A stretch of 64,000 nt of DNA, taken from Sipunculus nudus. Taxonomy: Eukaryota; Annelida; Sipuncula; Golfingiida; Sipunculidae. The translations under genes were made by a program, and so were the position numbers. The notes under the pieces were generated by a model, which was given only the letters and a program-made list of their open reading frames with translations, did not search any database and was not told the origin of the DNA. Numbering within the stretch: position 1 is the stretch's first letter; each line of letters starts with the position of its first letter. This document shows positions 25,201 to 31,200 of the stretch, one piece after another. The stretch is taken from assembly GCA_026874595.1 (NCBI GenBank), contig CM049312.1, forward strand, positions 77,475,429 to 77,539,428, given 5' to 3'.

Positions 25201-28200
25201 AGTGGTCTTATAAGACAGGTTCCACTGTTTATATTTATATTTATCTTTTTTTTTAGGTTTGCGTGCAGGAGGACAGTGAAGGTGAAGGGCTCGTAGCTCA
25301 CTTCCCAGCGCATGCATCAGAGCCGGTATCAGCCATGGAGTTTGACCCCAGCGGCACTCTTCTTCTGACAGCAGACAGACTGGGGCATAACTTCCATGTG
25401 TTCCGTATCATGGCACACCCCTGGAGTTGTTCACTTGGAGCTGTACACCATCTGTACACCTTACATCGAGGGGACACAACTGCCAAGGTATGTACACCAT
25501 CTGAACACCTTACATCTGAGGAGACACAAATACCAAGGTATGTACACCATCTGTACACCTTACATCTGGGGAGACACAACCACCAAGGTATGTACACCAT
25601 CTGTACACATTACATCAAGGGGACACAACCACCAAGGTATGTGCACCATCTGTACACCTAACATTGAGGGGACACAACCACCAAGGTATGTACACCATTT
25701 GTATACCTTACATCAAGGGGACACAACCACCAAGGTATGTACACCATCTGTATACCTTACATCAAGGGGACACAACCACCAAGGTATGTGCACCATCTGT
25801 ACACCTAACATTGAGGGGACACAAACACCAAGGTATGAACACCATCTGAATACCTTACATCAAGGGGACACAACCACCAAGGTATGTACACCATCTGTAC
25901 ACCTAACATTGAGGGGACACAACCACCAAGGTATGTACACCATCTGTATACCTTACATAGAGGGGACACAACAGCCAAGGTATGTACACCATCTGTACAC
26001 CTAACATTGAGGGGACACAACCACCAAGGTATGTACACCATCTGTTCACCTTACATCTGGGGAGACAATCACCAAGGTATGTACACCATCTGTACACCCT
26101 ACATCAAGGGGACACAACCACCAAGATATGTACACCATCTGTTCACCTTACATCTGGGGACACAACCACCAAGGTTTGTACACCATCTGAATACCTTACA
26201 TCAAGGGGACACAACCACCAAGGTATGTACACCATCTGTACACCTTACATGGAGGGGACACAACCACCAAGGTTTGTACACCATCTGAATACCTTACATT
26301 TAGGGGACACAACAGCCAAGGTATGAGCCCTATCTGTACACATTAAGTCAAGGGGACACAACCACCAAAGTATGTTCACCATCTGTACACCTTACATCGG
26401 GGGAGACAACCACCAAGGTATGTACACCATCTGTACACCTTACATCTGGGGAGACAACCACCAAGGTATGTACACCATCTGTACACCTTACATCTGGGGA
26501 GACAACCACCAAGGTATGTACACCATCTGTACACCCTACATCAAGGGGACACAACCACCAAGGTATGTACACCATCTGTACACCCTGCATCTGGGGACAC
26601 AACCACCAAGATATGTACACCATTTGTATACCTTACATCAAGGGGACACAACCACCAAGGTATGTACACCATCTGTACACCTAACATTGAGGGGACACAA
26701 ACACCAAGGTATGAACACCATCTGAATACCTTACATCAAGGGGACACAACCACCAAGATATGTACACCATCTGTACACCTAAAATCGAGAGGACACAACA
26801 GCCAAGGTATGTACACCATCTGTACACCTTACATGGAGGGGACACAACCACCAAGGTTTGTACACCATCTGAATACCTTACATCAAGGGGACACAACCAC
26901 CAAGGTATGTTCACCATCTGTACACCTTACATCTGGGGAGACAACCACCAAGGTATGTACACCATCTGTACACCTTACATCTGGGGAGACAACCACCAAG
27001 GTATGTACACCATCTGTACACCCTACATCAAGGGGACACAACCACCAAGGTATGTACACCATCTGTACACCCTGCATCTGGGGACACAACCACCAAGGTA
27101 TGTACACCATTTGTTTACCTTACATCAAGGGGACACAACCACCAAGGTATGTACACCATCTGTACACCTAACATTGAGGGGACACAAACACCAAGGTATG
27201 AACACCATCTGAATACCTTACATCAAGGGGACACAACCACCAAGATATGTACACCATCTGTACACCTAAAATCGAGAGGACACAACAGCCAAGGTATGTA
27301 CACCATCTGTACACCTTACATGGAGGGGACACAACCACCAAGGTTTGTACACCATCTGAATACCTTACATCAAGGGGACACAACCACCAAGGGTTGTACA
27401 CCATCTGAATACCTTACATTTAGGGGACACAACAGCCAAGGTATGAGCCCTATCTGTACACATTAAGTCAAGGGGACACAACCACCAAAGTATGTTCACC
27501 ATCTGTACACCTTACATCGGGGGAGACAACCACCAAGGTATGTACACCATCTGTACACCTTACATCTGGGGAGACAACCACCAAGGTATGTACACCATCT
27601 GTACACCTTACATCTGGGGAGACAACCACCAAGGTATGTACACCATCTGTACACCCTACATCAAGGGGACACAACCACCAAGGTATGTACACCATCTGTA
27701 CACCCTGCATCTGGGGACACAACCACCAAGATATGTACACCATCTGTACACCTTACATCAAGGGGACACAACCACCAAGGTATGTACACCATCTGAATAC
27801 CTTACATTTAGGGGCACAACAGCCAAGGTATGTACACCATCTGTACACATTACATCAAGGGGACACAACCACCAAGGTATGTACACCATCTGTACAACTT
27901 ACATCAAGGGGACACAACCACCAAGGTATTTACACCATCTGTACAACTTACATCAAGGGGACACAACCACCAAGGTATGTACACCATCTGTATACCTTAC
28001 ATAAAGGGGACACAACCGCCAAGGTATGTGCACCATCTGTACACCTAACACCGAGGGACACAACCACCAAGGTATGTACACCATCTGTTCACCTTACATC
28101 TGGGGAGACAACCACCAAGGTATGTACACCATCTGTACACCCTACATCAAGGGGACACAACCACCAAGGTATGTACACCATCTGTACACCCTACATCTGG

Positions 28201-31200
28201 GGACACAACCACCAAGATATGTACACCATCTGTACACCTTACATCAAGGGGACACAACCACCAAGGTATGTACACCATCTGAATACCTTACATTTAGGGG
28301 ACACAACAGCCAAGGTATGTACACCATCTGTACACCTAACACCGAGGGACACAACCACCAAGGTATGTACACCATCTGTTCACCTTACATCTGGGGAGAC
28401 AACCACCAAGGTATGTACACCATCTGTACACCCTACATCAAGGGGACACAACCACCAAGGTATGTACACCATCTGTACACCCTACATCTGGGGACACAAC
28501 CACCAAGATATGTACACCATCTGTACACATTACATGGAGGGGACACAACCACCAAGGTATGTACACCATCTGTACACCCTACATCTGGGGACACAACCAC
28601 CAAGATATGTACACCATCTGTACACCTTACATCAAGGGGACACAACCACCAAGGTATGTACACCATCTGTACACCCTACATCTGGGGACACAACCACCAA
28701 GATATGTACACCATCTGTACACCCTACATCAAGGGGACACAACCACCAAGGTATGTACACCATCTGTACACCCTACATCTGGGAACACAACCACCAAGAT
28801 ATGTACACCATCTGTACACCTTACATCAAGGGGACACAACCACCAAGGTATGTACACCATCTGAATACCTTACATTTAGGGGACACAACACCCAAGGTAT
28901 GTACACCATCTGTACACCTAACACCGAGGGACACAACCACCAAGGTATGTACACCATCTGTTCACCTTACATCTGGGGAGACAACCACCAAGGTATGTAC
29001 ACCATCTGTACACCCTACATCAAGGGGACACAACCACCAAGGTATGTACACCATCTGTACACCCTACATCTGGGGACACAACCACCAAGATATGTACACC
29101 ATCTGTACACCTTACATGGAGGGGACACAACCACCAAGGTATGTACACCATCTGAATACCTTACATTTAGGGGACACAACAGCCAAGGTATGTACACCAT
29201 CTGTACACCTAACACCGAGGGACACAACCACCAAGGTATGTACACCATCTGTTCACCTTACATCTGGGGAGACAACCACCAAGGTATGTACACCATCTGT
29301 ACACCCTACATCTGGGGACACAACCACCAAGATATGTACACCATCTGTACACCTTACATGGAGGGGACACAACCACCAAGGTATGTACACCATCTGAATA
29401 CCTTACATTTAGGGGACACAACAGCCAAGGTATGTACACCATCTGTACACCTAACACCGAGGGACACAACCACCAAGGTATGTACACCATCTGTTCACCT
29501 TACATCTGGGGAGACAACCACCAAGGTATGTACACCATCTGTACACCCTACATCAAGGGGACACAACCACCAAGGTATGTACACCATCTGTACACCCTAC
29601 ATCTGGGGACACAACCACCAGGATATGTACACCATCCATACACATTACGTCAAGGGGACACAACCACCAAGGTATGTACACCATCTGTATACCTTACATC
29701 GAGAGGTCACAACCGCCAAGGTATGTACACCATCTGTATACCTTACATAAAGGGGACACAACCGCCAAGGTATGTGCACCATCTGTACACCTAACACCGA
29801 GGGACACAACCACCAAGGTATGTACACCATCTGTTCACCTTACATCTGGGGAGACAACCACCAAGGTATGTACACCATCTGTATACCTTACATCGAGAGG
29901 ACACAACTGCCAAGGTATGTATACCATCTGTATACCTTAAATGGAGGGTACACAACCATCAAGGTATGTGCACCATCTGTATACCTTACATCGAGAGGAC
30001 ACAACCACCAAGGTATGTACACCATCTGTATACCTTAAATGGAGGGGACACAACCGCCAAGGTATGTGCACCATCTGTACACCTTACATCAAGGGACACA
30101 ACCGCCAAGGTATGTACACCATCTGTACACCTTACATGGAGGGGACACAACGCCAAGGTATGTACACCATCTGTACATCTTATATCAAGGGGACATAACT
30201 GCCGAGGTATGTGCACCATCTGTATTTATAGCCTCCATGGAGGGGACACAACCAGTAGAGTCAAAAGTGACTAAGCAAAAGATGGATACTCCAGATATAC
30301 CAGTACCATTATATTAATACTCTACTTACGCAGCAGCATTATACTGCGGTTGTTCCATTTCTCCTTTGCTTTAACTGCTGCTTTCTATAGCAAGGTTTTA
30401 AGGGTTTCTAAATCAGGGCTGGCACAGATAAAAATATTGTCATCAGACAAATGAGATTGTGGTATTGTAAGTTGCTTCAAACCAGTGAGTGCGGGGTGTC
30501 AAATGATTGATTCTTGGAGTTGGATGCACATTGCCATACTACTTTCTCATTGGTCTGATAACAATTCTTTGCCCTGAGTGCCAGCCCTGGAGGTGAAACC
30601 CAAACAACAGTGTGTATCCTTTATTGTATAAACTATTTAATATGCTTGCAAAATTCTTTATTTTTTTGGAAGGACCAAGGGAACATTGAAGAAATAGAAA
30701 TTTTTATTTTAATTATAGGCTGATAGTGTAAAAGATATGTATGATTCATAGTATCTATCTTTGACATACAGATCATATATAAGATATGTGTTAATATATA
30801 TATATTTAATATAGTCAATAATTATTGCTTGTAACTGCAGCCATATATAGTGTATATGAGATTTCAGTGGGGCTAGAGTTGAATCAAATCTTCACCTGTG
30901 TAGTTGGGGTGTCTAATTGTATCCTCAGACAAATTTAAAGATACTGGAGTAAGCACGGATGGCCGCCGCCACAGAGATTTCGTTTGGACGTGATAACTCA
31001 AAAAATATTTTACAGATCTTTACCAAACTTGACATGTGCATAGATATGGGTAAGAGGAGGAAGTCTATTTTAAATGAGGCATGAACTTTAATAGGAGAGT
31101 GACCTTGACCTTGAATAGGTCTATTTTTTGGGGGGAAAATTACACAAATTCTTAATTATCTCAAGAAATCTTGCATGGATTAATCCAAAAATCAACTTGA

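Follow-up and report, generated by a model that had tools for sequence, protein, structure and literature searches.

The stretch analysed here (the window) comprises 64,000 nucleotides of contig CM049312.1 of the sipunculid Sipunculus nudus (assembly GCA_026874595.1, positions 77,475,429 to 77,539,428) and carries the gene BCAS3, one intron of which opens with a long minisatellite made of copies of the preceding exon end and its splice donor. All exons, splice sites and units of this array lie on the + strand. The exon concerned (25257..25487, 77 codons, ending in phase 0; presumably exon 12, a number taken over from the first-pass annotation of this DNA) matches positions 275-350 of the Pfam family PF21034 BCAS3_WD40 (102.6 bits, E 2.4e-29). 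The next exon (32480..32573, acceptor before 32480, donor GTGAGG at 32574) continues with positions 351-383 (E 1.1e-10 for 32480-32596 in the profile search). Joined at 25487/32480, both exons form one run over positions 275-382 at 159.8 bits (curated cut-off 26.3), with profile positions 350 and 351 meeting across 25488/32480. Therefore, the gene is BCAS3, and the family-contiguous protein results from the donor GT at 25488..25489 and the acceptor at 32480, the same pair that the first-pass annotation had proposed. Genome-wide, BCAS3_WD40 yielded four exon matches, every one of them in the window, and the gene is seemingly single-copy in this genome. A search of the PDB with the exon retrieved just weak WD40 matches (best E 0.0083).

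The donor-side exon-border minisatellite extends from 25442 to 30254. Tandem Repeats Finder (TRF) reports it as a single array (25442-30224, period 49, 98.3 copies, 87 % matches), and segmentation by cyclic alignment resolves 98 full head-to-tail units of 48-50 bp (25442-30209) followed by a broken final unit (30210..30254). The array is confirmed, as is its formerly estimated size of about 97 copies after the first unit (97 downstream copies, 25491..30209). Units of 49 bp prevail (60), next to 36 of 48 bp and 2 of 50 bp, the first five measuring 49, 50, 50, 49 and 49 bases. The 98 full units represent 52 distinct sequences with a mean pairwise difference of 12 %. Unit 1 (25442..25490) consists of the last 46 exon bases (25442-25487) and the intron bases GTA (25488-25490), i.e., of the exon end with its donor as supposed before, albeit with three intron bases instead of four. 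Searching the genome with the exon gave at least 94 matches, namely the exon itself and 93 in the array (25541-30208 of the window), a lower bound since one candidate region was scored; as all 93 further matches fall inside the array, it is not a product of chance. With the same scope of one scored candidate region, the array consensus was located in the 1.43-Gb genome only at BCAS3. The array contains long open frames of 657 and 581 codons (24, 17 and 15 stops in its three forward frames), which were rejected as genes and regarded as a by-product of a unit without stops.

The exon end with its own donor is, judging from the comparison of exon and copies, the founder of the array, in agreement with the first-pass annotation. 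The exon is considered ancestral because it continues the family profile, because its residues score better and because bases private to it are enriched at the array edges. Thus, R and A within the exon's LHRGDTTAK give 159.8 bits as compared to 155.7 bits with Q and T of the array consensus. The exon-specific T (alignment column 40) is common to units 2, 92 and 98 only, and the exon-specific G (column 41) occurs in 17 copies, 7 of them among the last 11 units (shuffle values of ~4e-4 each, for tests picked after seeing the data and units that are not independent). The final full unit (unit 98, 30161..30209) retains the exon-specific TG of ACTGCC, and the copy nearest to the exon (unit 92, 29869..29917, 4.1 % different) likewise lies close to the distal edge. 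A third exon difference (G at a mostly gapped column) is found in 23 copies across the whole array, by eye without edge bias, and against a simple gradient stands the almost flat mean distance to the exon per ten units (0.09 to 0.118). Block duplications are evident from seven successive units (18-24) identical to units 41-47 and five (75-79) identical to units 80-84.

BCAS3 is described as a proppin-like autophagy protein, and the motif LKRG of Dictyostelium Bcas3 aligns with the proppin FRRG and is required for binding of phosphatidylinositol 3-phosphate, according to the available portions of the report (PMC8032249). The LHRG of the S. nudus exon may represent the counterpart of this LKRG. 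While the proppin-like motif noted earlier in the copied segment is thereby supported in part, it is mostly lost in the copies: when the 49-bp downstream copies (59 in all) are translated in exon register (copies of 48 and 50 bp being left out of this count), one (unit 11) keeps LHRG and 27 have LHQG.

GT is found at the donor place in 83 of the 97 downstream copies (84 of all 98 units, including the real donor), and AAG|GTATGT in 70. The intron indeed begins with many decoy donors, though fewer than the some 95 announced. Read-through of the normal donor would meet a first in-frame stop (TAA) at 25659..25661, and the three copy positions before it (25538, 25588, 25637) are all out of frame. 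Twenty-seven copy positions (26 with GT) share the frame of the next exon, the earliest at 25686. Since not one of the 97 positions combines the right frame with a stop-free read-through, use of any decoy breaks the protein in this allele; other alleles may differ in this respect. The in-frame, length-variable insert envisaged by the first-pass annotation was consequently rejected for this allele, its earliest in-frame position lying beyond the TAA. The arithmetic offered for it has to be corrected, too: the unit lengths give a frame shift of two with one added unit (not of one), and three added units amount to 149 bases out of frame rather than to 49 residues in frame. The alternative outcome of decoy use, a truncated or frame-shifted product, is possible.

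The real donor has a U1 duplex energy of -8.2, and the same value is reached at 63 of the 84 GT sites (the real one counted). Sites with -7.9 or better number 70 in the array (4.8 kb) versus 2 in the remaining intron (2.2 kb), and 12 and 10 in two 10-kb stretches elsewhere. Departure from the majority among the copies amounts to 13.4 % for the donor G and 1.0 % for the donor T (median of the other columns 2.6 %), and selection, whether it favours or disfavours donors, has left no clear trace in the array. Recursive splicing via AG|GT at the copies is not favoured, with at most 14/20 upstream pyrimidines at the 204 AG of the array versus 17/20 at the exon's acceptor; with just 11/20 at the true acceptor of the exon that follows, this test is a weak one.

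Further minisatellites spanning an exon-intron border (mirages) were found in the same genome. From 138 listed kinase (PF00069) matches, 60 short ones were sampled roughly by score, i.e., not at random (at least 5 of these 60 had an internal stop), and each matched exon core was uniformly compared with 350 flanking bases on either side (fewer for L031, where the contig ends). Donor-side repeats of exon sequence were detected at 2 of the 60 cores (L022, L065) and acceptor-side ones at none within these flanks; one batch of 20 regions contained no donor-side exon repeat. The minus-strand control on the 60 cores yielded one self-palindrome only (L023). The array L022 (G000:C4:93856830-93866829, 339-4914) comprises 72 copies of a 65-bp unit over 4.5 kb at a kinase exon ending SEPYSTK; the unit consists of the last ~20 exon bases, the donor GTAGAT and ~40 intron bases, and GT is present in 72 of 72 copies and AAG|GTAGAT in 59 (search allowing 7 mismatches in 23). 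L065 (G000:C14:49453352-49454258, 487-698), at a kinase exon ending CLVLEM, has 2.4 copies of an 89-bp unit, which are 82 % alike and therefore suggest an older array. A third array, L028 (G000:C12:54484460-54494459, 2528-3111), is located at an unsampled kinase exon and is extra to the count of 2 in 60. It contains 8 copies of a 73-bp unit (53 exon and 20 intron bases; GT in 7 of 8) at an exon ending SIGCIFAEM, which we take to be CDK-like (cyclin-dependent kinase), and its copies, 97 % alike by TRF, point to a young age. None of the four unit lengths (49, 65, 73, 89) is a multiple of three, as expected by chance in about one case in five.

Several near misses were kept outside these counts. 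L018 (G000:C9:48353600-48363599, 4249-4855) is a 40-bp x15 array of intron sequence only, a few bases past a kinase donor. L040 (G000:C11:54655538-54656890, ~281-640) shows short acceptor-region repeats (CTGTATTG..CAG) within the intron upstream of a kinase exon, which may represent an ancient acceptor-side array devoid of exon sequence. L029 has 120 bp x2 in the intron preceding the exon, and L024, L026 and L076 gave one match each, 14 to 21 bases long. Within BCAS3 itself, the other six exon stretches tested in the window are without repeats. A 17-bp x5.2 repeat (25133-25220 by TRF) ends 36 bases before the acceptor AG of the array-bearing exon, so that tandem repeats flank this exon on both sides. 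Two further arrays reside in BCAS3 introns, one of 336 bp x7.8 (33682-36333) and one of 139 bp x9.1 (97 %; 41948-43214), the latter starting ~130 bases past an exon end and containing no exon sequence. Apart from repeats, several small contigs (G000 C61, C62, C66, C69, C72, C74, C77, C83, C89, C90 and others) carry the same long-frame helicase genes repeatedly, as would be seen if a bacterium, either symbiont or contaminant, were present in the assembly in multiple copies or strains. Searches for other protein families gave 18 matches for the tyrosinase family, 14 for globin and none for the haemocyanin beta-sandwich, the last being a negative that is no proof of absence.

The BCAS3 array is best explained as a mirage, i.e., a minisatellite that arose by tandem duplication over the exon end and its 5' splice site and that is neutral, with the first donor retained; we assign this reading a probability of about three in four. 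Repeated tandem duplication of the segment spanning the exon's 3' end and the 5' splice site most likely started the array, and slippage of units together with duplication of multi-unit blocks spread the copies, with the edges homogenised least. If splicing keeps to the first donor (25488), the copies would remain intronic and the array would be tolerated as essentially neutral for the protein, whereas use of other copies would lead to a stop or a shifted frame. The first donor hardly differs from the copies in local sequence; therefore, position must decide if it is the one used, and closeness to the exon's own acceptor and earliest transcription may provide the positional cue. Donor-side arrays would survive more easily than acceptor-side ones by being hidden through first-donor splicing. 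A broader proposal, namely that 5' splice sites seed minisatellites recurrently throughout the genome, with donor-side arrays accumulating under the cover of first-donor splicing and acceptor-side copies being spliced in and hence selected out, is advanced tentatively and appears somewhat less probable than its negation.

Several observations weigh against these views. Use of the first donor is deduced from sequence. In U1 energy the real donor (-8.2) falls short of two further BCAS3 donors of the window (-10.2 and -9.9), and in accessibility it ranks 24th of 98, all sites being poorly accessible; this leaves room for competition, and accessibility as a reason for choosing the first donor is unsupported at that rank. 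The donor-side excess of 4 versus 0 includes the ascertained BCAS3 case and is no sufficient basis for claiming a bias, and one of the four arrays (L028) belongs to an exon outside the sample. The real rival is that decoys are used often enough to matter, giving rise to frame-shifted or truncated BCAS3 or to nonsense-mediated decay, such that array length would tune the output. The abundance of GT and of identical AAG|GTATGT among the copies, the U1 energy equal to that of the real donor at most sites, and the crowding of strong sites in the array relative to the other 2.2 kb of the intron would all suit such a role, and copies of the human IFI6 repeat do serve as donors as far as the available text of PMC4526556 states. 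However, every decoy disrupts the frame or runs into a stop in this allele of a conserved, seemingly single-copy gene, the donors bear no clear sign of selection, and amphioxus mirages are reported, in the parts available, to leave regular splicing undisturbed (PMC3087553, PMC3902484). Consequential decoy use is therefore judged unlikely, though to be taken seriously.

The remaining explanations are considerably weaker. A function of the array itself, as a U1 sink guarding the long intron from premature polyadenylation or as an element acting on chromatin or as an enhancer, would agree with the density of U1-matching sites, but block duplications and drifted copies resemble ordinary minisatellite turnover and the similar arrays in the same genome differ in sequence, rendering this role very improbable. 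No more credit is due to an assembly or sequencing artefact: while the copy number of long arrays is often wrong in assemblies, the diversity of the units (52 distinct sequences, 12 % mean difference) and the independent arrays of like design at other genes contradict it. That the repeat came first, i.e., that an inserted satellite or mobile element supplied the exon end, is the least probable of all and already largely refuted, considering that conserved BCAS3 sequence makes up the exon end and follows the family profile without interruption, that the exon end scores above the array version, and that the search described above (one candidate region scored) retrieved the array consensus from no other place.

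The locus is of interest for the study of donor choice, which normally deals with two or three competing sites, whereas here 83 further GT donors lie in almost identical 49-base surroundings, and only choice of the first donor preserves the protein. If RNA shows that the first donor is used, the choice rests on position (acceptor distance, transcription order) and not on local sequence. If seeding is recurrent, the genome would offer numerous natural experiments on donor competition, in which as many as ~80 nearly identical donors follow one another and which would reveal whether position or sequence governs the choice. Given that three more arrays turned up in so limited a sample, minisatellites at exon borders seem to be no rarity in this genome, where they would make introns longer, obscure gene models and provide material from which new introns may form. 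What is new is the array's length, the genome in which it occurs and the finding of similar arrays at other S. nudus genes, the kind itself being known.

In amphioxus, repeats at exon-intron borders have already been published as mirages, as stated in the available portions of two reports covering the globin genes BflGb6 and BflGb9 as well as Adh3, TnC and PGBD5 (PMC3087553, PMC3902484), so that the array is not unprecedented in kind, contrary to what the first-pass annotation implied. The BCAS3 array is a member of this kind: its unit spans the exon-intron border (46 exon bases plus GTA), AG/GT signals occur in many but not all copies (GT in 84 of 98), and concerted evolution inside the array, seen in the identical 7- and 5-unit runs, spares the edges, where exon bases are enriched. 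The same partial retention of AG/GT and the same escape of cluster edges from homogenisation characterise the amphioxus mirages. For the latter, RT-PCR (reverse transcription PCR) and the Adh3 data suggest that regular splicing remains intact (PMC3087553, PMC3902484); if the S. nudus array behaves alike, its splicing would be undisturbed and its length unstable between haplotypes or in the soma. The genome searches with the exon and with the array consensus showed no second haplotype in the one assembly. Differences concern size, with 98 units as compared to 6 and 3 in two quoted BflGb6 haplotypes, and location, amphioxus having mirages on both sides of exons while the four S. nudus arrays are all donor-side. 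Mirages in print were found for amphioxus only, in a literature coverage that lacks most subscription journals and hence leaves absence elsewhere unproven.

The array also resembles that of human IFI6 in being a minisatellite at a donor and offering multiple donor sites. Turri, Cuin and Porter reportedly described this IFI6 (6-16) minisatellite with multiple splice donors in 1995. Two downstream repeat units of IFI6 are used as donors and generate isoforms, according to the available text of PMC4526556; such isoforms with in-frame inserts have no parallel in this BCAS3 allele, where no copy gives an in-frame, stop-free insert (0 of 97 positions). Likewise located at exon-intron borders are variable tandem repeats in genes of human segmental duplications, which can change splicing; as far as PMC2812944 could be consulted, they have 30-bp units repeated four times on average and belong to recent primate paralogs, in contrast to 98 units in a conserved gene. 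Finally, the Rogers model of intron gain via tandem duplication of AGGT segments (PMC4974935, available in part) shares with the BCAS3 array the tandem copies of an exon part with AG|GT, but differs in that here no new exon is evident and the copies lengthen an intron that pre-existed.

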